From assembly GCA_017962315.1 (NCBI GenBank), contig JAGCVN010000030.1, positions 1-50,044 of the forward strand: a stretch of DNA of 50,044 bases, read 5' to 3'. A model generated the notes under the pieces. The model was not told where the DNA came from and ran no database searches. It worked only from the letters and a program-made list of their open reading frames with translations. The stretch's first letter is position 1, and the number at the start of each line of letters is the position of its first letter. Positions 7,260-22,565 of this stretch are shown here, one piece after another. This stretch comes from Kiritimatiellia bacterium (GTDB taxonomy: Bacteria > Verrucomicrobiota > Kiritimatiellia > RFP12 > UBA1067). The translations under genes were made by a program, and so were the position numbers.

Positions 7260-10200
7260 TTAGTTTCCGCTGGTGGAGTAGGTCTTGAGGCCGATCTTGA
7301 TATCGACGACGCCCGCGAAGTCGAGCTTGCCGTCGCGGTTGGAATCGACGCCGTTGACGAACGCGGAGAGGGCGGCCTCGCGGTCCGCGCCGAGCGAGCC
7401 GGCGGGGATGATCAGGAGCCACTTCGTGTTCCATGCGGAGCGGCCCACGAGTCGCGTGCAGTCGAGCGAGTCATCGACCGGGTCTTTGCCCGCATCATCG
7501 TAGTAGGCGCGGAAGGACGGATGCTTGCGGATACGCGCGCCAAGGTCGTTACCGCCCGTGTTGCCATCGTAGAGCGGCGTCCAGTCGGGGTCGTCCAACT
7601 GCGTGGAACCGATCGCGTAGGGTGCGGGAATGGTCTGATCCACGATCTTCCAGGAGAGGACGACGTTCCTGTCGCCCACGGCCCGCATGCGGTCCTCGCC
7701 CACGGGGACAAGGTACGCGGTCGGTGTCTTTGCGAGCGAACTGTCGTCGTATCCCTCGAAGTGAACGCCCGCCGTGGAGATGTGGGTCGCGTAGTACGTG
7801 GGATCGAGCGCGGAGTCGCCGCCGGCGAGCTTCTGCCCGAAGAAGTTGTAACCGTGGGCAATCAACGACGGGAACGGGATCACGAGTCCCGGCTCCTTCT
7901 GCGCCGTCGAACCAGCGAGCGGCTGGCAGTAGTGGCGGAACTCGGGCAGCTCGTTGAGGTCCTTGACGACGTACTTGCGCAGTTCCGTCTTCCACGCCTT
8001 GTCGCCTTCCTCCTCGTCGTAGATGCGGAAGAGGTCGTGGCGGAGAGAGAACCAGGTCGCGTAGGGCTGCGGGTTGTTGATGCCGAGGCGGGGCTTGAGG
8101 ACGAGCCAGTTGGCGTCCATCTCCGCGAGGATGGCGGCAAGCCCGCCGTCGCCCTTCGCGGCGTCGGAGGCGGCGATCGGGTCACCGTCGTCATCGAACT
8201 CGCCGGGCGTACGCGCGCCCACGATGCGGGCCATGAAACGCTCGCCGCTCCGACGGTCGGAGGAGAGCAGGCCCGTCTCGTAGTCGTAGGCCTGCGCGGC
8301 AAGGTATGCGTACTTCTGCGCAAGCTCGAACTGCGCGGAGTAGCGCGAGAGCGCATTGTTGCGCACGAGGCGGAAGAACATTTCGTTGTAGCGCGTCTTG
8401 GTAAGCGAGTCGACGGCCTGCTGGCGGACGAGCGTGCGCTCGTCGATGAGGCGCTCCGCCTCGGCGATCACGGTCTCGACGGCGCACTGCGCGGTCTGGA
8501 GCTCGACGAACGCCGAGCGCACCTCGCCCGCCGCGTCGTTCACCTTCTCGGCGGCCGCGAGCATCCGCTGATAGTACTCGTCGTACTTGTCGACGTACTC
8601 GCTCGCCGTCTCCAGCTGGTCCAGCAGCACCTGCAGGAATGTGTCCCACCCGTTATTCTCGTCCAAGGCGTTCTTGGCGGCGATGAGGGCCGTCGCCTGG
8701 GCGGTCGTGGCCGCAAGACGAGGCACGTTCTGGACGGCGGCGGCGGCGGCCTGCGGATCGACGTTCACGGTCATTCCCGCGCCCACCACCTTCGGGACGG
8801 CGTGGAGGACGGCGTCCGACGCCTTACCCGTGAGGCGCATGGTAACCTCCAGCGTGTTCGCCGTGATCTTGCTCGCGGCGTCCGTCCAGGCCGAGACCGC
8901 GTCCTTCGCGTACTTGACCTCCTTCATAACCAGAATGGCGTGGTCGCGGCCGAACTTCGACCAGATCGTCGTGTTCTCGTAGTCGAACTGGTGGATGGCG
9001 ACGTCCCACGCCGCGACGGCCGCCTTGAAGTTCGCGTAGGCGGCGATCAGGTTGCCGAGTTCGTCCTGGATGCGTCCCTGCGCCCGGCGCTTGCCCGTGA
9101 CGGTGGACGGCTTCAGGACGATGCCGGCGGCGGACTTGTCGAACTCGAACGTCATCTGCCCGGTCTGGTCGTAGAAGTTGTACATCTCCACCACGCCGCC
9201 CGCGCCGCCGCCCGTGTACTTCGTCACGTCGAACTTGTAAATCGCCTTCGTGACGGACTTGACGTCCTCGCCCGCCGAAAGCCCGCACGTCTCCGGCTCC
9301 ATCCAGGCGTAGTGGAAGAGGTCCGGACCGTCGTATCCCTGCGCGTACGTCCCGCCTGGCCCGATGTCGCCCTCGTACGGATAGCCGAAGTACTCAATCA
9401 GCGCGTTCTTCTTCTCCAGCTCCATCGTCTCAAGCTGGTTCTCGCGCGAGAACTGCGACTCCTGCAGCATCCGAATGCGCGATCCGTAGAACTGCGCCTT
9501 GTCGAGGAGTTTGCGCGCGTTGGCGAGCGCCGTGCCGGCGCGTTCGCGGATCTGCTCGAAGTGCGTCTTGCCGTCCTCGTCCCTGTCGATCGGCGTAAGG
9601 TCGAACGGAATTGCGGCCGATGCAAGGCCGAGCGGGTTCAGCCCCGCGTCCATCTGGTCGACCTTCTTCTGGATGGCGGGGATGAGCGAGGCGAGCGAGG
9701 CGAGCTCCGGCACGGTGGAACGGTCGATGCGCTTCAGGCCCTCGTCCTCGAAGTCGATGTTCATCCCGCTCTCGGCGGAGGCGAGCCACGCGCCGCCTTC
9801 GACATGCCAGATGGCGGACGGATCCGTGTCGTCGACAAGGGAAACGTCGCCCGACGGCAGGGTGTCCACGATCGACCGCAGGTAGAGCGCAAGTCCCTCG
9901 GCGACGGGAGAGGCGAACTCGCGCTTCGCAAGAAGGTCGGCGTCCGACCTGTTCGCTCCATCCCAGAACCGGACCTCTCCGATCTCCCCGGCGTACCCGG
10001 CACCGAGCAGCACGTAGCACAGCTCGGTACCCAGCGGGCCGCCGACAGGCTTCTCAACGATCTTCGCGCCGGAATTGTCGAACAACGACACGGTCGGCGC
10101 ACCGCCGCGAGACCGGAGCGCCACGAGCGTGTTCTCTGCGGACGCGACCGTGCCGATCTCGACGCTGTCGTAAGCGATGTCGGAAGGTTCCGTGGTCTCG

Positions 10201-13200
10201 ACCGTGGTCTCGTACACGTAGGGCAGGAACTCGCCCGTGTCCGGATCACGCCACTTCGCGCAGGCCCAGCCATCCCAGACGGGCGCGTCCGGAGCGTCGT
10301 CCAAGTCATGGCCGAGCTGCTGCTCGACGACGTACCCCTCGGGCAGGGCAACCGGCACGCTGTTCGTGCCGTAGAACACGCACTCGAGGATCCGGGTGCC
10401 GTTCGTCACGGCGAACGTGGCGGACAATTCGGAGTCGGCGGTGGCCGTCGTGTTGGTGTAGGCGTAATGGTAGACCGTGTTCGTGACGGTCTCGGAGATT
10501 ACGTGGAGGCGTTCGAACATCAGCTTGTTTCCGTCTGCCAGGCTGAACCCGAACGCCGTGTCGTCGCCCATCACGGTCAGGAGATTCGCGTCGTTGGAAG
10601 GCTGCGTGGACGCCGGCACGATCTGGAACTCGACCGTCCACTGCTCGTCCGGGTCGAAGTCCCCGTATGGATCCTCGTCCTCTTCGACCCCAAGCGCGAT
10701 GAAATCGGACTCGCTCTGGAAGAGATAACGCCAGTAGTTGCCACTCTTGGGCTCGACGGGCAGGAGTGCGTTGCCGACCGCCCAGTTGCAGAGCGCGCCG
10801 AAGCCACCGCGCGAGGCCCACTCGCCGTAGCCGAAGTTCCGAGTCTTGTCGTCATCGAGGTAGCCCGCGCCGGACGCGCCGCCGTTGTCGCGGTATGCCT
10901 TGCGGGCCGTACGGTCGACCGTCTCGGCGGCGACCTTGGCGACGTTGTACGCCGCCTTCGCGAACTGCGCCTCGTCGTAGTAGTCCACATTCACCACAGC
11001 GTCGGCCACCGTCATCTCGCCCATCGCGGGCACACCCCACGTGAAGTACGGGTTGCGGAGGAGGCGGTAGTAGCCGGAGAGCGCGCTGAGGTAGTGTCCG
11101 TAGGCGTCGCCGTGTCCCTGCGGGTACATGTCGGCCGCGTCGTTCTCGTCGATGATGCCCTTGTTGTTGCCGCTGATGTCGTAGTTGACGGCGTACGCCA
11201 CCTCGCCCGCCGTGATGCCCTTGGTGAAGTTCCACACGAGGCGGTTGTAGTACGGCGAGATGCGCGTCGAGGGCGCGTTGTCGCCGCTCCGGCCGCGTAG
11301 GAGCGCAAGCTCTTCGTCGAGGAGCGTCGGCACCTGGTTGTCGAACGCGAAAAGCGCGGTGGAGAGCGCGCCGTAGTCGAGCTCGAAGCCGGTCATCTCG
11401 ACGTTGTTGAAGTTCGCGCCGAAGCCGATCGTCGGGTTCAGGGCGTCAATGTACGCCTCGTCGCCGAGCGTGTTGTAGAGGTCGGCGAGGCGGGCGACGG
11501 CGAGCTGGAGCTGCTTGTTCGCGTCGAGGTCGTCGATGCCCATCTGGAGCGACATCGACTCCGCCTTCGAGAGAATCGTCTCGTAGAGCTGGATGAGGCC
11601 CACGTCCTTGAGCGCGTCGTTGTTGAGCGCCACGTCGCCCTCGTAGGGCCGGCCGGCCTGGACGATCATCGAGACGGGCGTCTCCGCCTCGTTCTCCACG
11701 AGGTCGCGCATCCGCTGCGCGAACGGCGTCACGTTGTTGAGGACGCGCTGCACCCACCCTTCCGCGAGCGCGGGCGGATCGGTCCAGTCGCTCCAGGCGA
11801 GGCCCATCGCCGCGTAGGACGGTGAATTCGCGTCCTTGGCCCGGTAGCGGACGGCGTAGTACGTGTTCACCATGTTCTCGAGCGTGTCGCCCTGGTGTCC
11901 GATCGTGAAGCGCGTGAGTCCGGCCGTGGGCTCGAACTTCGCCGTGTACTCGTCGTCGAAGTCCGTCGGCACGGAGCCGTCGGCGTGCGGACGGCACTTC
12001 TTCCACTCGAACACGTACTGCCCCGGCTCGCCGGCGAACGCCTCGCCGTAGATGATCGACAGCTGCTGCGAGAGGAGGTTGAGCGGGTCCTCGCGCGTGA
12101 CGACGCGGCCCGTGTAGTAGCGCGGCACCACTTTCACGAGGTGCATCGAGATCGGATCGCCCGGATCGACGTTCATGAGCACGTTCGTCGAGTCGTTCTC
12201 GATGAACGTCACGTAGTTCGTGGAGCCCATCGTGAAGAGCGCGTAGTGGTCGCGGGGACGGTAGTCGATGCGATCTTCGGCGGCGGAGACCGACACGTGC
12301 GGACTCGGCTTCACGCACCCCGTCGCGAGCGTGGCGATGGCGGCGCGCCACGCCTTCTGGCCGGCGGTAGAGGCGGTCGAGTCGAGAAGCGACGAGAGGA
12401 CCGCGCGCTCCGACGCGCTCAGCACGTTCACGTGCAGGAGCGAGACGCCGGCCTTGTTGTCCTCCATCTCGCCCTCGAGCTTCAGGCAGCGCGTGACATC
12501 CGCCGTCGTATCGAGGTAGAACCGCTTGGAGATGGACGGTGGCAGCCCGTCGAACGTCCAGCGCCCCTTGCGGAGCGTCCCGTTTCCGCCCGCGCCCTGC
12601 TTGATGCCGAGGTCGGCGATTGCGTCGGCCACGGTCGCGTAGGTCGTCTTCGGGAAGCCGCTCGTCTGCGCCACGGTGGGGTCGAACAACACCGCCGTCG
12701 CGTCGCGCGCGGCGTCCGTCGCGGGCCACACCACGCCCACGGACTTGCAGTTCCACACCTCCGGGAGACCCGACGCCGCCACGGTGAGCGTGCGGCCGAT
12801 CTCGATTTCCGGGACGTTTTCCGGCCACTTCACGCGCCACTTCCACGGATGCGGCATGGCGGACAGGACCGACGGGGAGCTCGGCAGGCCGCCGAGGAGC
12901 GAGAGCCACGGAATCGCCGTCCCCACCTTGGGCCAGTTCGCCGAGTCGAGGGACGGAAACGCGAAGCCCTCCTGCATGCGGTAGTACATGCGCATCGTCG
13001 CCGTGCCGGCGGCGCGCGCCCAGAGCTGCTCCTTGCGGTCGCGGAACGCGGGCGCCGTCGCCACGGGTTCGTCCCACGAATCCTCGGGACACCACGGATC
13101 GTCGAAGAAGTCGATCGGGTGAGGCCCGGGGAACGCCTTGCCCGCCACGCAGTCGGCGGCGAGCTCGGGATAGACGCTGTTCGTGACCGCCACATCGAAC

Positions 13201-15776
13201 CACTGCATCGCCTTGCGTCCACCCTTCACGTACTCCACGAGCACGCCCGGCGCGGAGCTGCCCTCCATGTTGAGGTCGGCGCGGAGCGCCCACGCCACGT
13301 AGCCGCCCGAGCCCGCGCGCACGATGGCGTGCTCCTCGTTCGGGTTGTAACCCGTCTTGCCCCTCTCGTTCTGCACATAAATCTTCGGCGTGCTGTCGCC
13401 GTCCGCGTCGATCACGCCGGTTCCGGTGGCCGGCGGCCCGTTCTCATCGGCCAGACACCCGTGTGCCACGCAGACGGTTCCGAGGACCTTGTCGGTGAAC
13501 GTGCGCCTGTCGGTCCCGGTCACGGCGAGGTCCTTGCCGTCGATGAACGAATAGCATCCGGTGAGGTGGTTCTCGCGCCCCGTGTGCGTCTTCAGCCGCT
13601 CCTCGACGATCTCCTCTGCGGTAAGAGACCTGTTCCAGAAAAGGACTTCGCCCACCGTGACGCCCTTCCCCGTGAACTGCGGCGCAATCACGCCGGCTTC
13701 GTCGCTGCCGAACGTGGCGGACCAGTGGCGCCATTCCGTGCCAGGCATGGAATACCCGCCCGCGATGTCGCCGGCCGTCACCGACACGTCGGCGAACGTC
13801 AGCACCACGGTTGCCGGATTGACGTCATCGGCGATTTTCGCCCAGAACATCACCGTGCCGCCGTCGTTCTCGTCGAAGTACTTGCGCTCGGACAGCACGG
13901 CGGTGGAATTCGTCTCGGAGAGATACAGTCCCATGTTGTGCGAGAAGACCGATTCCGACGCGCTGCCGAGCTGCGAGGCGAGCACGATCTGCGGCGTCTC
14001 GCTCGGCTCCGGCCATCGCACGGAATAGACCTGCGGCAACGTGGGAATCGCGAGCGGCTTTGCCATGCCCTCTTCCCGGATCGTGGTGTTCCACCAGACT
14101 TCGATGCGGGGAACGGAGACGGAGGAACCGGGAACGGGGTTGGCGGAGACGGCATAGATGACGGATTCGTATTTGTTGGTGTCGGAGGACACCTCGGTCA
14201 TGTTAGTCGAAGCGCCGCCTGCGGAGTCCGGTTCCGGCGCGACGTAGAGGTCCGGATTCCAAATTGGCGCGGACACGGTCTCGTAGATGAAACCGGGGCT
14301 GGACGGGTTGCATCTCGGACTGAACCCAGGTGCCGTGCCGGCAACGCTCCCGCCGCGTAGCCTCAGTTCGACGCCGACGCGGATATCCTCCGCGGCGAGC
14401 GTGTAGTAGTTGGTGTTCGTGCGCATGATCGAATGGATCGGCACGAACCACACGTTGTCGTCCGCCGCGAGCTTGAGGAGAGAATACCCTTCGCCGAGCG
14501 TCGTGAACGTGCCATCACCGGCGACCGCGCGGGCGTGTCCCTCGGGCTCCTGGTAGTCCATGAGCGTGGCGTTGTATCCCGACGGTACGTAGATGGGGCG
14601 TCCAGGGGCGGCGGCGTTTTCGCCGCGTACGAACACGGTCGTGTCCTCTGGCCAGTCGCATGCGTATTGGTCCAGCTCGAACGGCCAGTCGACCTCCATC
14701 TCGTCCGTTTCCATCCAGTAGACCTCCATGTTCGACGGATAGTCCTTCGTGGGACGGAGCGGATACACGTTGCCGTTCTTGGGGCTGTAGGAATGTTGTC
14801 CCTTGTGCTGGTAGTAGTAGTCGCCCCGGTTGTCGGACGGCTGCACGTAGGTGGGCTGGGGACGGAGTCCGACCACGTCGTAACCGCGTCCGTCGGGCTT
14901 GAGGGGACGCCCGATCTCACCCGTGAGGCGGTTCACCTGCGGACGGCACACCTCGACCACCTGCACGTGGAGCAGCCGTTCGAACGTGCCCGAGTCGTAG
15001 TAGGCCATCACGACCTGCCCCTGGAGCTGTCCGTAGGCGAAGAGCGTCTTGGTCGAGGGGTCCAGGCTGAGTCCGCTCACGATCTTGTTGGTGATGACCT
15101 GCTGGATGCCGGCGGCGACGTTCGTGACACTGCCGTAGCGGGGGGTCAGAATCTCCTCGCTCCCGAAGAACTTCACGAACTTGCCGCTTAGGTCGATGCC
15201 TGGGCTGTTGTACGGGTAGTCCGTCCAGTAGATGCGGCGCGGACGCCCGGAGCACGACATCGACACGTTGTACGTCATCTGACGGACCGAGCCGCCCACG
15301 AGATGCCACGTGAACGTCTGGACGCCGCCCCGCGCCGCGAACAGGCGGTGGTCGTCCTCGTCAAAGATGAACTTGTCGCGCGCGTCGGCCGGCAGCGCGA
15401 GATAGGCGTCATACGTAGCCGCCCAGTCCACGCCGTCCGGTGGCTCGATCTCGTCGGCAAGGTAGTAGTCGGGCTTGGCGCGCTCCAGCGGGAACCCCGC
15501 CTCGGCGGACGCCAGCGCCATGCGCGGCGCGCCGAGGAACTCGACGCGCGACACGCCACCCGTCGTCGCGACGATTGACATCGCGGGGTAGGCGCCGTTC
15601 GCGGCCAGCCACGGATTGTCGCCGGCATCCGCCGAAATGTAGATCGTCGGCGCGCTGGGAACGCCCAACACGTACGTCGGCGAATCAGCAAACGCACTGA
15701 CTGCCACGAGGAAAATGACGAATGATAAATTACGAATTACGAATGACGAGTGACGAATGAATGAAAAATTGCTCAT
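7260..15776 (-). CDS. Giant secreted multidomain protein with LamG-like domains (2838 aa)
   Basis: The largest gene here. Residues 1-31 form a signal peptide ending VAVSAFA-DS. The first 600 residues are beta-rich with no family I recognise. A LamG-like jellyroll is read around 640-760 (GTVMFWAKIADD through VGEVLFWNRSLTAEEI). A second lies around 1710-1950 (QWTVEFQIVPA through IGEVRFWDGANRS). Residues about 2000-2500 are largely helical, probably coiled coil, with many Ala/Glu/Gln heptad-like stretches. The C-terminus has a calcium-loop-like VDSNRDGKLD near 2812. No LPxTG, autotransporter barrel or transmembrane anchor is visible. It lies between the four-helix-bundle gene (4-nt ATGA overlap) and the calcium-repeat gene. 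Codon use is more GC-rich than in flanking metabolic genes. A surface or extracellular structural or adhesive role is inferred. Confidence 0.8.
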   Translation of the reverse strand: MSNFSFIRHSSFVIRNLSFVIFLVAVSAFADSPTYVLGVPSAPTIYISADAGDNPWLAANGAYPAMSIVATTGGVSRVEFLGAPRMALASAEAGFPLERAKPDYYLADEIEPPDGVDWAATYDAYLALPADARDKFIFDEDDHRLFAARGGVQTFTWHLVGGSVRQMTYNVSMSCSGRPRRIYWTDYPYNSPGIDLSGKFVKFFGSEEILTPRYGSVTNVAAGIQQVITNKIVSGLSLDPSTKTLFAYGQLQGQVVMAYYDSGTFERLLHVQVVEVCRPQVNRLTGEIGRPLKPDGRGYDVVGLRPQPTYVQPSDNRGDYYYQHKGQHSYSPKNGNVYPLRPTKDYPSNMEVYWMETDEMEVDWPFELDQYACDWPEDTTVFVRGENAAAPGRPIYVPSGYNATLMDYQEPEGHARAVAGDGTFTTLGEGYSLLKLAADDNVWFVPIHSIMRTNTNYYTLAAEDIRVGVELRLRGGSVAGTAPGFSPRCNPSSPGFIYETVSAPIWNPDLYVAPEPDSAGGASTNMTEVSSDTNKYESVIYAVSANPVPGSSVSVPRIEVWWNTTIREEGMAKPLAIPTLPQVYSVRWPEPSETPQIVLASQLGSASESVFSHNMGLYLSETNSTAVLSERKYFDENDGGTVMFWAKIADDVNPATVVLTFADVSVTAGDIAGGYSMPGTEWRHWSATFGSDEAGVIAPQFTGKGVTVGEVLFWNRSLTAEEIVEERLKTHTGRENHLTGCYSFIDGKDLAVTGTDRRTFTDKVLGTVCVAHGCLADENGPPATGTGVIDADGDSTPKIYVQNERGKTGYNPNEEHAIVRAGSGGYVAWALRADLNMEGSSAPGVLVEYVKGGRKAMQWFDVAVTNSVYPELAADCVAGKAFPGPHPIDFFDDPWCPEDSWDEPVATAPAFRDRKEQLWARAAGTATMRMYYRMQEGFAFPSLDSANWPKVGTAIPWLSLLGGLPSSPSVLSAMPHPWKWRVKWPENVPEIEIGRTLTVAASGLPEVWNCKSVGVVWPATDAARDATAVLFDPTVAQTSGFPKTTYATVADAIADLGIKQGAGGNGTLRKGRWTFDGLPPSISKRFYLDTTADVTRCLKLEGEMEDNKAGVSLLHVNVLSASERAVLSSLLDSTASTAGQKAWRAAIATLATGCVKPSPHVSVSAAEDRIDYRPRDHYALFTMGSTNYVTFIENDSTNVLMNVDPGDPISMHLVKVVPRYYTGRVVTREDPLNLLSQQLSIIYGEAFAGEPGQYVFEWKKCRPHADGSVPTDFDDEYTAKFEPTAGLTRFTIGHQGDTLENMVNTYYAVRYRAKDANSPSYAAMGLAWSDWTDPPALAEGWVQRVLNNVTPFAQRMRDLVENEAETPVSMIVQAGRPYEGDVALNNDALKDVGLIQLYETILSKAESMSLQMGIDDLDANKQLQLAVARLADLYNTLGDEAYIDALNPTIGFGANFNNVEMTGFELDYGALSTALFAFDNQVPTLLDEELALLRGRSGDNAPSTRISPYYNRLVWNFTKGITAGEVAYAVNYDISGNNKGIIDENDAADMYPQGHGDAYGHYLSALSGYYRLLRNPYFTWGVPAMGEMTVADAVVNVDYYDEAQFAKAAYNVAKVAAETVDRTARKAYRDNGGASGAGYLDDDKTRNFGYGEWASRGGFGALCNWAVGNALLPVEPKSGNYWRYLFQSESDFIALGVEEDEDPYGDFDPDEQWTVEFQIVPASTQPSNDANLLTVMGDDTAFGFSLADGNKLMFERLHVISETVTNTVYHYAYTNTTATADSELSATFAVTNGTRILECVFYGTNSVPVALPEGYVVEQQLGHDLDDAPDAPVWDGWACAKWRDPDTGEFLPYVYETTVETTEPSDIAYDSVEIGTVASAENTLVALRSRGGAPTVSLFDNSGAKIVEKPVGGPLGTELCYVLLGAGYAGEIGEVRFWDGANRSDADLLAKREFASPVAEGLALYLRSIVDTLPSGDVSLVDDTDPSAIWHVEGGAWLASAESGMNIDFEDEGLKRIDRSTVPELASLASLIPAIQKKVDQMDAGLNPLGLASAAIPFDLTPIDRDEDGKTHFEQIRERAGTALANARKLLDKAQFYGSRIRMLQESQFSRENQLETMELEKKNALIEYFGYPYEGDIGPGGTYAQGYDGPDLFHYAWMEPETCGLSAGEDVKSVTKAIYKFDVTKYTGGGAGGVVEMYNFYDQTGQMTFEFDKSAAGIVLKPSTVTGKRRAQGRIQDELGNLIAAYANFKAAVAAWDVAIHQFDYENTTIWSKFGRDHAILVMKEVKYAKDAVSAWTDAASKITANTLEVTMRLTGKASDAVLHAVPKVVGAGMTVNVDPQAAAAAVQNVPRLAATTAQATALIAAKNALDENNGWDTFLQVLLDQLETASEYVDKYDEYYQRMLAAAEKVNDAAGEVRSAFVELQTAQCAVETVIAEAERLIDERTLVRQQAVDSLTKTRYNEMFFRLVRNNALSRYSAQFELAQKYAYLAAQAYDYETGLLSSDRRSGERFMARIVGARTPGEFDDDGDPIAASDAAKGDGGLAAILAEMDANWLVLKPRLGINNPQPYATWFSLRHDLFRIYDEEEGDKAWKTELRKYVVKDLNELPEFRHYCQPLAGSTAQKEPGLVIPFPSLIAHGYNFFGQKLAGGDSALDPTYYATHISTAGVHFEGYDDSSLAKTPTAYLVPVGEDRMRAVGDRNVVLSWKIVDQTIPAPYAIGSTQLDDPDWTPLYDGNTGGNDLGARIRKHPSFRAYYDDAGKDPVDDSLDCTRLVGRSAWNTKWLLIIPAGSLGADREAALSAFVNGVDSNRDGKLDFAGVVDIKIGLKTYSTSGN
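15712..15770. repeat. AATGA-type repeat tract, left inverted arm of the four-helix element
   Basis: On the plus strand this reads as imperfect tandem units of the form AATGACG / AATTACG. The opposite orientation occurs at 16163-16219 across the four-helix-bundle gene. The whole tract lies within the coding sequence for residues 3-22 of the giant protein. Confidence 0.7.
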
Positions 15777-16168
15777 TGGTTCACCAGCCCTTTCTCAATT
15801 GTTCTACATGATGCAGAAAGCAGGAGCCGCATTTCACGACAATCATTTAGCATAGAGATCATCTGAGATTCCTCTGCGATACCACTTTTGAAAAGAAGTT
15901 CGAGCCAAAACATCGTCTCGGAACATTCCTTGAGCGAGATCTTGCACTTATTTAAGAAGTCCTTTCTTGAAGCAGCGTATCTCGCTTCCGACAGGTTGGC
16001 GCCAATACTGGTACCGCTCCTCACTATCTGATCTGCAATCGAGAACTCTTTTTTCTCGTTTCGCAGCCATCGAGAAAGCTTGACGATCCGCACGGCGAAG
16101 TCCATGCTTTTGACCTTCAGTGGATCGTCTTTCGCCGCACGGCCTCCATCTGTCCTTCCAGTCTTCAT
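15773..16168 (-). CDS. Four-helix-bundle protein (23S rRNA IVS-encoded / S23 family)
   Basis: A 131-aa protein. From about residue 20 it matches the four-helix-bundle family often encoded by 23S rRNA intervening sequences: VKSMDFAVRIVKLSRW, SIADQIVRSGTSIGANLSEA near 45-65, KDFLNKCKISLKECSETMFWL near 70-90, and a final helix. The family is small (110-130 aa), cytoplasmic and of unknown function. No rRNA surrounds it here. The first ATG lies in the repeat tract; the ATG before DFAVRIVK at residue 22 is an alternative start that would give a more typical N-terminus. The stop overlaps the start of the giant gene (ATGA), so translational coupling is expected. Confidence 0.85.
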   Translation of the reverse strand: MKTGRTDGGRAAKDDPLKVKSMDFAVRIVKLSRWLRNEKKEFSIADQIVRSGTSIGANLSEARYAASRKDFLNKCKISLKECSETMFWLELLFKSGIAEESQMISMLNDCREMRLLLSASCRTIEKGLVNQ

Positions 16169-16219
16169 TCACCACTCTTCATTCTTCATTTGTCATTCGT
16201 CATTCTTCATTCTTCATTT
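16163..16219. repeat. TCATT-type repeat tract, right inverted arm of the four-helix element
   Basis: Tandem imperfect units of the form TTCATTC / GTCATTC on the plus strand, that is AATGA units on the minus strand. It holds the stop codon of the collar protein (16216-16214) and the first ATG of the four-helix gene (16168-16166). Confidence 0.75.
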
Positions 16220-17215
16220 GACTCTCATGATAAAGCACAGCGTGTAGTACGGCGGGCGGTTCTCATGTGCATCGCCGTTGCCAACGTAGCTCGTGCCGTA
16301 GACGCCGCTGCTCCAGGAGCCGCCCATCTTTGAGTCTGCGTCATAGCGGGAGGTTGTCGCGCGCAGTTTCGTGGAGCATCCAGACTCGATGTTCTCCAGC
16401 TGGTCGTCGCCGACGTACTCGTGGCGGTGCCGCGGCATTTGGGATTCCGTCAGAGTCACCGTATTCGCGCCGCCGGTCTTTCCGACCGAGTTGTAGCTGG
16501 TATCGCGGGAATCGTATCCGACGATGAACCGTCCCCGGAGGTCTGGCGTACCGTTCGATCCGTTGCAAAGCTTCCAGCCGTCCGGGATGTTGGACGCCGA
16601 ACCGCTCCACATGATGATGCCGCCGACGGGCGTGATGCCGTAGCCGGAGAAGGCGCCGGACGCCCCGGCGGAGATGTTGCCGGTCACCGAAAGGCTCGTC
16701 GCCGAGAGCGCGCCCGCGTTCATGGTACCCTGCACGGCGAGCCCTCCCTTGAGGGTCGTCTGCCCTTCCACGGTAAAGTCGCCGCTCGCCGCCGCCGCGT
16801 CGGACGCATGGATGGCGTAGGGCACCGCGAGAAGCGCCTGGCGCGGCGAGATTTCACCGGACGAGTTGTCCACCGTGAGGCCGATGTAGAGCGTCGTCCC
16901 GGAATTCCGTGCGAGGATGGACGCAAGCCCGGTTGACGTCACGCCGTCGATCTCGCTACCGGCCGCGTCGGTAATCGCCGTGTTGAAGAGCCCGTTCGCG
17001 TCGAGGAGCACGTTGTACGCGCGGCCCCAGAGCGGCGTGTCCGTCGCCGGCCCGTCGTAGATGCGGAACTGGACCGTCCTGTTCTTGTTGGCGGGCACGG
17101 CGCCGCCCACCTCCTTGATGACGCCCTGGTACGTGAACGCGGCGCCCGCCGCGACGCAGGGAAGAGTCGCGACAGACGCGACAATGACAATGATTCCGAA
17201 GATGAACTTCCTCAT
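16214..17215 (-). CDS. Secreted fibre-like protein with phage tail-collar domain
   Basis: A 333-aa protein with a Sec signal peptide (MRKFIFGIIVIVASVATLPC). Residues about 25-150 form a domain common in PVC and planctomycete surface proteins, with FTYQGVIKEVGGAV and PRQALLAVPYAIHA. A low-complexity Gly/Ala/Ser/Thr shaft follows (TTLKGGLAVQGTMNAGALS). From about 195 comes a tail-collar domain: GWKLCNGSNGTPDLRGRFIVG, then VTLTESQMPRHRH and ENRPPYYTLCFIMRVK. Collar domains cap phage and R-type tail fibres, but there are no other phage genes here and the signal peptide argues for a secreted surface fibre. AAGGA lies 7 nt before the chosen ATG; an in-frame ATG at 17278 would hide the signal peptide. 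The stop codon is in the repeat tract. Confidence 0.8.
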   Translation of the reverse strand: MRKFIFGIIVIVASVATLPCVAAGAAFTYQGVIKEVGGAVPANKNRTVQFRIYDGPATDTPLWGRAYNVLLDANGLFNTAITDAAGSEIDGVTSTGLASILARNSGTTLYIGLTVDNSSGEISPRQALLAVPYAIHASDAAAASGDFTVEGQTTLKGGLAVQGTMNAGALSATSLSVTGNISAGASGAFSGYGITPVGGIIMWSGSASNIPDGWKLCNGSNGTPDLRGRFIVGYDSRDTSYNSVGKTGGANTVTLTESQMPRHRHEYVGDDQLENIESGCSTKLRATTSRYDADSKMGGSWSSGVYGTSYVGNGDAHENRPPYYTLCFIMRVK

Positions 17216-17292
17216 GGTCGTTTCCTTTTTGATAATCGCAGATTGCACTCGATCGCCGGGAATGGCCATCGACGACATTCGTTTATACGTGT

Positions 17293-20017: not shown

Positions 20018-20689
20018 TCATGGCAAGACCTCCCAGTAACCGTTCTTGCGAGCCCCACGGCGAATGATGTATCGTTCCTTTATCAGAATGACTATAGCTT
20101 TCGTTATTGCAGCCCGCGAGAGATTGAGCTTACGCATCAATACCTGTTGTGTAAACGATCCGTCTTCTGATAACGCCTTGAGTACTTGCCTACACGAAGC
20201 TGGTAATTCGCTAAGCAATTTCCTTTCTGATTGTTCTTTACCATCATCAGGTTGAATGTTACCCTCTGCATTATTGTCTACTTTAATGTCATCTTCTGGG
20301 GCACTTTCAACTTCATCATCGGTAGTGACAACGATTACAGTCCGATCTGGGTCATAGGATTCGGTGATTTTGGGTTCGGCGCAGCCGTATTTCTTCCACA
20401 GGCCGTGGAGGTTCGCAAGGCCCATGCCGGAACGCTCGCCGATATCGACCAACGCAAAGATGTTGAAGATCGCGGTGTTGCGTGCGTCACTCGTTCCACC
20501 CGCTACGGAAACGGACTTGCTGATGCGCATCGTGCCGGGGTTTGAAAAGGTGATCGTTCCGCCGTCCGTGTTGCAGAAGGCGCTGTACGTCTCCCAGAGG
20601 TTGTCGGGCAATTCAGAGGTTGCGCGTTTGAATTCAACGCGCTCATTTACCCTAAGAAGCTGGGTAATCTGTCCACCCGTCAGCTTCAT
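20018..20689 (-). pseudogene. AlbA_2/Schlafen-type ATP-binding regulator with internal in-frame deletion
   Basis: A 223-aa frame. Residues 1-45 match the start of AlbA_2 (Schlafen-like) DNA-binding proteins: MKLTGGQITQLL, then ERVEFKRATSELP and AFCNTDGGTI. At about residue 46 the sequence jumps to the far C-terminal part of the accompanying ATPase domain (FSNPGTMRISKSV, then DIGERSGMGLANLHGLWKK and DPDRTVIVV). An acidic linker and a winged-helix end follow (QQVLMRKLNLSRAAITKAIV). Full-length relatives are about 450-550 aa, so some 250-300 residues are missing between the two parts without a frameshift. I call it a deletion derivative, probably a pseudogene; a functional mini-protein that keeps the winged helix is possible. 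Its ATG lies in a repeat tract. Confidence 0.7.
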
Positions 20690-20734
20690 TCGTCATTCAT
20701 TCATTCGTCATTCGTCATTTGTCATCCGTCATTC
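20686..20734. repeat. AATGA repeat tract spanning a stop-start junction
   Basis: On the minus strand the tract is a run of AATGA/GATGA units spaced by C/A/G triplets. It contains the TGA stop of the 595-aa gene (20731-20729) at its beginning and the ATG of the AlbA_2 remnant (20689-20687) at its end. It is the same repeat type as flanks the four-helix gene at 15.7-16.2 kb. Confidence 0.75.
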
Positions 20735-22516
20735 CAACACGATCTCCGTCTGGGAACTGACGCGGGTGAACGACATATCGCCGACGAGCGTGACCGGTCC
20801 CTGCCGCATGAGGTTCGTGAGCTTCCATGTGATCCGTCCGCTCTTCACCTGCTCCGGGTTCCACGCCGCCTCGCCACCGTTCAGGTCGAGCGAAAGCGAA
20901 ATCTCGTTCCCGACCGAGAACGTCTCCGGCTTCACGTCGCCCTTGTAATTCGAGAGTACATCGCCACTCGGCGCGGGTGTCTTAAAGTCCCACTGTAGTC
21001 CGTCGTGCTGCGGGTGGAGCGGATGCCGCAAAAGGCTCGTCGCACCGCCGCCCGCCACCGTGAACGCGAACGTCACGCCGTCCGGCTGGCTCAGCGAGTC
21101 CGCACCGCCGGACGCCTCGATGACGGGAGTCTCCGTGGGCAGGCACACCGCGCTGATGCGCATCGCGATATGGGCCGTCGTCGGGACTGTCGCCTTTCCC
21201 GCAAAAAGATGGTAGGCATACGTGCCGTCCGCAGCCATCTCGCCCGCCGCCACGACGCGCTGCAGAAGGCGGACCGTGCCGTGCGCGTCGATGTGGATCG
21301 GAAGCCTCAGCTTCGCCGTGCCGCCCGTCTCCGTCTCCACGGACTTGTCTGGCGTGACAATACGGTTGAAGGCAACGTCCGCCACCCACAGTCCGCCCGG
21401 CCACGCCCTGTTTGCGGTAGAAATTCCGGACGTCTCGCCGACAAGCGGCACGTCCACGCGCATCTTCGACTTGCCATCCACGTCCGTGATACGCAGGAGC
21501 GCACCGAAGGTTCTGCCCTGCACTTCCGCGTCGAACACCCTTCTATCTAAGCCGAATTCGATCTTCCACGTCTCACCGGCGGAAAGGCGTTTCGTCGCGA
21601 TCGGCGCGGAAGACTGCGCACCGCCCAGTGGCGTCCATACCGCGTTCGTCAGCGCCACCGCCGCATCGCGGATGTGTACGGCCGTCTTGGGCAACATCAC
21701 GTCGCCGTAAGCAGCGTCAATCTCCATCGCGACCGCCACCGTACGCGCAGCCTCGCCGTCGTTGCGGATGGACAGCGTCTCCTTCGACGAATCGCTTCCG
21801 AAGTCGAGCCCGCCCATCGGCGAGACGTTCAGCACACCCGACCAGTCGCTCTGCGTGTCGGACGACACGAGCAGCACGTCTCCGTCCGAGACCGTCGCCG
21901 TAGAATAAACCGGCTTGATCACGGGGGATTGATTCTCGGAGTTTCCGGAAAACTTGAAAAAGCCGCTCTTCAGGAATTCACCGTCGAATCCTTCCAGATA
22001 CTCGCCCGGATAGATTGACGCGCCCTGTTGGAGCGAAAAACCGATAAAGTTGTAAACCTCATTCGTATCCGTGATATGCCAAGTCATACGCGGCGCGGCG
22101 GGCACCCCGGTGATTGACACCACCGTCTTCGTCAAATTGGTGTTGAACGCCAGACATACCGTACCGGCGGGGATCGATTGAACTTTCGTCGCCTCTGGAA
22201 ACATACGGTTCCAAGTGGCGACAGGCGACATCGTCCCTCCTTTTGAATTCCATGTCTGGGAGAACTGGCGCGTCGCCAGGAAAGACGCCGGATCGTAAAA
22301 ACCGACAGCGTTCACCGGCCATGCCGCGAATACCTCATCAAGCGGCGCAACCGGGGAAACCTCCACATAAACCGCGTTCCAGCCCCTGTTCAGGGTAATC
22401 TCCTGCCGTACCATGACGTCCGCAGAACCAGACAACACGGCAAAGAGTACCGTCAAAAACGGTAACCACAAAGAGGCACCAAAGACCTCGTCCGACAAAA
22501 TGCGTTGTTTGTTCAT
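20729..22516 (-). CDS. Secreted 595-aa beta-rich protein, probable partner of the giant protein
   Basis: A 595-aa protein with an N-terminal signal or membrane anchor (LWLPFLTVLFAVLSGSADV). Then comes an ITLNRGWNAVYVEVSPVAP motif and a long beta-rich body with many Thr/Ser/Val strands. I recall similar GWNAVYVEV-type proteins next to giant LamG proteins in PVC genomes; this is a recollection, not a search result. There are no catalytic motifs that I recognise and no C-terminal anchor. The start at 22516 is chosen because the promoter -10 box ends 20 nt upstream; a GTG at 22546 would begin before that transcript. The leader would be only about 13 nt, without a Shine-Dalgarno. It heads the 16-kb minus-strand block, though distance and internal promoters argue against a single mRNA. 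Confidence 0.7.
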   Translation of the reverse strand: MNKQRILSDEVFGASLWLPFLTVLFAVLSGSADVMVRQEITLNRGWNAVYVEVSPVAPLDEVFAAWPVNAVGFYDPASFLATRQFSQTWNSKGGTMSPVATWNRMFPEATKVQSIPAGTVCLAFNTNLTKTVVSITGVPAAPRMTWHITDTNEVYNFIGFSLQQGASIYPGEYLEGFDGEFLKSGFFKFSGNSENQSPVIKPVYSTATVSDGDVLLVSSDTQSDWSGVLNVSPMGGLDFGSDSSKETLSIRNDGEAARTVAVAMEIDAAYGDVMLPKTAVHIRDAAVALTNAVWTPLGGAQSSAPIATKRLSAGETWKIEFGLDRRVFDAEVQGRTFGALLRITDVDGKSKMRVDVPLVGETSGISTANRAWPGGLWVADVAFNRIVTPDKSVETETGGTAKLRLPIHIDAHGTVRLLQRVVAAGEMAADGTYAYHLFAGKATVPTTAHIAMRISAVCLPTETPVIEASGGADSLSQPDGVTFAFTVAGGGATSLLRHPLHPQHDGLQWDFKTPAPSGDVLSNYKGDVKPETFSVGNEISLSLDLNGGEAAWNPEQVKSGRITWKLTNLMRQGPVTLVGDMSFTRVSSQTEIVLE

Positions 22517-22536
22517 AGCACGAATAAAGAAATGGC

Positions 22537-22565
22537 ATTTTATCACCTCGAACTGTCTACTGCAA
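22537..22565 (-). promoter_or_regulatory. Promoter of the 595-aa gene
   Basis: TTGCAG (22565-22560), a 17-bp spacer, and TAAAAT (22542-22537) lie on the minus strand. It gives a very short leader and is divergent from the fucosidase promoter 54 bp away. Confidence 0.7.

Follow-up and report, generated by a model that had tools for sequence, protein, structure and literature searches.

In a 50,044-nt stretch of DNA from a Kiritimatiellia bacterium (hereafter the window), the 3′ arm of an S23 element has probably become both the start and part of the signal peptide of a giant gene, where it would have displaced the beginning of an ordinary signal. Comparable takeovers are found in related bacteria and in unrelated secreted proteins, and these loci offer tangible natural examples, and more than one, of a mobile-element repeat that has turned into a likely targeting signal for a protein and brought a new start codon with it. 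They also suggest that S23 intervening elements, which are known from 23S rRNA, are common in operons. The basis throughout is sequence inference from metagenome assemblies.

The anatomy of the locus can be read directly from the assembly (Table 1). On the minus strand, the order is tail-collar-like gene, heptamer tract, S23 gene, heptamer tract and giant gene. The tail-collar-like gene is a conserved neighbor of the giant gene that is also present in orthologous loci, and the 5′ heptamer tract begins at its stop codon. The S23 protein scores above the curated family cut-offs (87.4 bits against 33.8 for PF05635 and 97.4 bits against 24 for TIGR02436). As originally predicted, the start codon of the giant gene (15776-15774) overlaps the stop codon of the S23 gene (TGA, 15775-15773) as ATGA on the minus strand. 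Tandem Repeats Finder reports the 3′ tract at 15714-15760 with period 7 and 6.7 copies; the heptamers remain in phase from about 15766 to 15712 and encode residues 4-22 of the giant protein, FSFIRHSSFVIRNLSFVIF. The translated tract at the N-terminus is thus as first described, apart from its extent, which had been given as residues 3-22. The tract pattern TCATTYNTCATTYNTCATTY has 48 overlapping matches at about 14 places in the same genome compared to 0 for a reversed control, indicating that it is not a product of chance.

Table 1. Features of the giant-gene locus in the window.
Feature	Position	Strand	Evidence and remarks
Giant exported-type protein gene	7260..15776	-	2838-aa open frame; no confident Pfam match (no significant hit in a profile search against Pfam)
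Signal-peptide codons of the giant gene, MSNFSFIRHSSFVIRNLSFVIFLVAVSAFA	15687..15776	-	Translation; hydropathy within the range of native orthologue signals; orthologue alignment of the mature start
3′ heptamer tract of the S23 element, TCATTYN units	15712..15766	-	Translated as part of the giant protein
ATGA, S23 stop overlapping the giant start codon	15773..15776	-	In frame with the mature protein
S23/four-helix-bundle gene, 131 aa	15773..16168	-	PF05635 8.8e-25; TIGR02436 5.3e-28; PDB 2rld 1.8e-29
5′ heptamer tract of the S23 element	16165..16220	+	Inverse orientation to the 3′ tract; gene strand reads AATGANG
Tail-collar/Gp10 C-terminal-like gene, upstream	16214..17278	-	PF21939 1.8e-07

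Translation of the signal-peptide codons shows the features of a Sec signal, i.e., a basic n-region with R8 and R15, the hydrophobic core FVIFLVAVS and A-F-A at positions −3/−1, so that cleavage is expected before DSPTYVLG. The mean hydropathy of the core is 3.06 compared to 2.4-3.1 in native orthologue signals, signal quality being judged by hydropathy and the −3/−1 rule only. Both arginines and four of the nine core residues are supplied by the tract, which contributes neither the remainder of the core (LVAVSAFA) nor the cleavage site; these are unique sequence. The original prediction that the repeat runs straight into LVAVSAFA and a cleavage site is therefore borne out; its claim that the repeat provides both the n- and h-regions applies to the n-region and to about half of the hydrophobic core. 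The tract is likely part of a Sec-type targeting signal, and export of the giant protein is predicted from it.

An ideal TCATTCG tract encodes (SFVIRHS)n in all three frames without any stop, since seven is not a multiple of three and every frame yields the same peptide; its opposite strand has one TGA per 21 bases. The tract in the window has stops in both unused frames, and the used frame is open into the conserved mature protein. A special arrangement that keeps 3′ tracts free of stops was rejected, as 45 fully open tracts were observed and 48 are expected with shuffled units; the scarcity of stops results from the pyrimidine-rich composition.

Tract-made signals were observed in seven giant-gene relatives with S23 upstream (G020, G032, G155, G157, G128, G142, and G153), and one further relative has an S23 relic. 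In all seven, the signal region contains the repeat that follows S23, and the giant start and the S23 stop overlap. The repeat units are TTCATTC in G020, TCATTTG in G032 and GTCACTC in G155 and G157, and those of G128, G142, and G153 are longer (∼24-28 bp), with a TCATTCG-like core and a GC hairpin. Each of the eight giant genes examined that has S23 or an S23 relic directly upstream has an in-frame start at the S23 stop, at distances of 78 to about 228 nt from stop to mature start. If the loci were independent, the chance of this would be ∼(1/3)^8; the loci are related and only partly independent.

Relatives of the giant gene were found in 72 of the 192 genomes searched, including that of the window. 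S23-free orthologues mostly begin shortly past the stop of the collar gene with an ordinary signal, e.g., the MRRLLLL... signal of G028, G041, G036, G065, and G096. An N-terminus shared with orthologues lacking the repeat had been named as grounds for rejecting the prediction; such orthologues turned out to carry unrelated signals, e.g., MRRLLLLMMAVAATGAALPARA. The closest S23-free sister gene, in G028, is also the nearest to the window on both flanks: the upstream gene is mostly 86-90% and the giant gene mostly 86-96% identical at the nucleotide level, but the signal is only 60% identical to that of the window, against 86% to that of G036. Judged by these identities, G028 and the window form an empty-site comparison. 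We infer from it the direction of the change and prefer replacement of the ordinary signal in the lineage of the window over its regain in G028. Alternatively, S23 could have been lost from G028 and its signal restored through recombination with a resident copy, as the signal DNA of G028 and G036 is nearly identical. A single S23 insertion for all giant loci is not supported, since the S23 tree and the giant-gene tree are incongruent. In G157, an S23-free orthologue of the giant gene (L058) has a hairpin repeat, CTCGCCGTTTCCGGCGAGGCGCAG, inside the signal region, indicating that other repeats also enter signal regions. In G137, an S23 gene related to that of the window follows the C-terminal end of a giant-like gene (L157), and the element is thus also found at the other end of giant genes.

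It is possible, though we think it the less probable course, that this gene clade originally had signals made from S23 tracts and lost them on several occasions, while MRRLLLL signals spread by recombination. The DNA of these signals is nearly identical across proteins that are only ∼75% identical, a parsimony count needs five changes, and G002, where only an S23 tail is left ahead of the giant gene, retains a signal that resembles a decayed tract. However, the better match of G028 to the window on both flanks would then call for a pair of breakpoints close on either side of the signal. An untranslated spacer, with the giant protein starting downstream or remaining unexported in the lineage of the window, is improbable. 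At many other S23 loci the downstream ATG directly follows the tract, so that a tract could serve as leader only. In the window, however, the next candidate starts past the tract are GTG +65, which would leave seven residues ahead of the cleavage site, and GTG +101, which lies inside the mature protein; neither leaves a usable signal, and a true start past the tract, the other outcome that would have spoken against the original prediction, finds no suitable codon. Moreover, the frame is kept at the eight giant loci although tract lengths differ, and nearly all orthologues with a complete 5′ end have a hydrophobic signal-like N-terminus. That a repeat-like signal is ancestral and functionally conserved, with the S23 gene and the repeat arising around it, is hardly credible despite tract signals in several branches of the giant tree, as tract sequence, unit and length vary by locus and resemble the opposite flank of the respective S23 gene, and as S23-free orthologues mostly have unrelated signals, none of those in the present sample being FIRHSSFVIR-like.

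We therefore favor a takeover by the S23 element, which would have landed between the tail-collar-like gene and the giant gene and most likely displaced the short spacer between them along with the beginning of the ordinary signal peptide. The S23 stop would provide the new start, ATGA, and we infer that this codon is translated by termination-reinitiation, aided by GAAAGG, an SD-like motif in the tail of S23. Stops are few or absent when the pyrimidine-rich tract is read in this direction, and an ideal tract gives an identical peptide in every frame, so that the tract could lead into the downstream gene as a preformed adaptor. Its hydrophobic peptide with Arg and His, joined to the retained LVAVSAFA end, would then make up the n-region plus half the h-region of a Sec-type signal. 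The sequence evidence supports the earlier reading of the tract as an export signal and also the suggestion that a repeat took over signal and start, which recurs elsewhere; what does not hold is a free repeat invasion, as the repeat is an arm of the S23 element.

The element in the window consists of a tandem tract, the S23 four-helix gene and an inverted complementary tract, and this arrangement is frequent. Among 116 distinct S23 loci, drawn from the best-scoring S23 matches so that the fractions describe that sample, 75 have a flank complementarity above the 95th percentile of mismatched pairs (∼6 expected by chance) and 48 above the 99th, compared to 4 and 2, respectively, for direct similarity of the flanks. 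The window scores 34, with the 99th percentile at 27, and in the predicted RNA its tracts base-pair from end to end around the S23 gene (fold z −4.0). Period 7 predominates in S23 flanks, and the repeat unit varies by locus. All six S23 loci inspected by eye on Nostoc and Bernardetia plasmids have inverted short tandem tracts; at one locus on a Nostoc plasmid (L238), the S23 gene lies between cas2 and cas1. A diversity-generating retroelement with an Avd-like four-helix partner is unlikely, judged on the reverse transcriptase: none is adjacent, and the only RVT_1 match of the genome lies on another contig (C127).

The S23-bearing intervening sequence (IVS) of Coxiella burnetii 23S rRNA has complementary ends that fold into a stem, and tandem GACAGAT heptamers in variable number directly upstream of the S23 ORF (PMC4990558). 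This was the one relevant paper in our literature search on S23 with repeats; searches with the repeat letters or the tract peptide gave no relevant paper, and Rfam gave zero matches. Like such an IVS, the window has an S23 ORF in a short selfish-type element with complementary, stem-forming ends. The window element differs in lying between two protein genes and hence outside 23S rRNA, in its arms, which are longer heptamer tracts, and in the reading of its 3′ arm as protein. Based on the complementary flanks at S23 loci and the likeness to the Coxiella IVS, we read the feature in the window as a putative intergenic relative of IVS elements.

Cyanobacterial STRR are comparable heptamer direct repeats near start codons. 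TAACTGA heptamers occur near start codons in Beggiatoaceae, cyanobacteria and Bacteroidetes, in a paper whose text, by text search, mentions neither S23 nor signal peptides (PMC4679880). Both share with the window tandem 7-bp units, often right before a start codon and some inside ORFs; in contrast to TAACTGA-type repeats, the units of S23 elements vary by locus and are paired in inverted arms. Rickettsia palindromic elements are selfish repeats that come in sequence families, are inserted within genes and are translated as part of host proteins. The tract in the window is likewise translated in a host protein, but it brings a new start codon along with the N-terminus, and unit sequences vary between S23 loci instead of forming one sequence family across loci as in Rickettsia. 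Random or low-complexity sequences can act as secretion signals in laboratory selections, which explains how a repeat with mild hydrophobicity can function in this way; compared to these selections, S23 tracts are a recurrent natural source.

The start and signal takeover proved as general as anticipated, recurring in other giant genes and in several other exported families. In G002, the full S23 gene now precedes a secreted-type M4 protease with a tract-made signal, the propeptide starting from residue 79. In G151, a close S23 relative precedes a serpin with a tract-made signal, the serpin Pfam domain starting from residue 39. The N-terminus of a CBM/GH123-like protein is likewise formed by an S23 tract, the tracts of all three proteins being of other sequence than that in the window, and several uncharacterised proteins with hydrophobic N-termini also begin with S23 tracts. 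We take the serpin, the M4 protease and the CBM/GH123-like protein to be normally secreted kinds. The enrichment of exported families among tract-fused genes is suggestive only (p = 0.075), and fused loci were counted partly by visual curation. S23 3′ tracts also encode N-terminal extensions of Tgt, HsdM and an amidohydrolase (L185, L197, L165, and L205), for which no export is anticipated, indicating that the tract is not selected for export as such. S23 tracts also begin non-exported proteins, and export is hence a by-product. Rather doubtful as a whole is the wider view that S23 elements are a widespread IVS-like selfish class in protein operons, with tracts that serve as adaptors in any frame and repeatedly furnish signal peptides in nature, and that gain or loss of a single 7-bp unit, which shifts the frame, could switch downstream export or expression on and off.

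Other tracts in the genome of the window are intergenic or located at the ends of genes or contigs, and none was seen as the source of a signal. Many of them (e.g., L036, L038, L041, L042, and L046) directly follow CGATATTTGTATTTGTGAACATTCG, which suggests a second repeat element joined to the heptamers; several of these are at contig ends. Within the window, another TCATTCG tract (20686-20735), without an S23 gene, lies exactly between the stop of one gene (20729-22546) and the start of the next (20018-20692), and may supply the stop and start region of the two.
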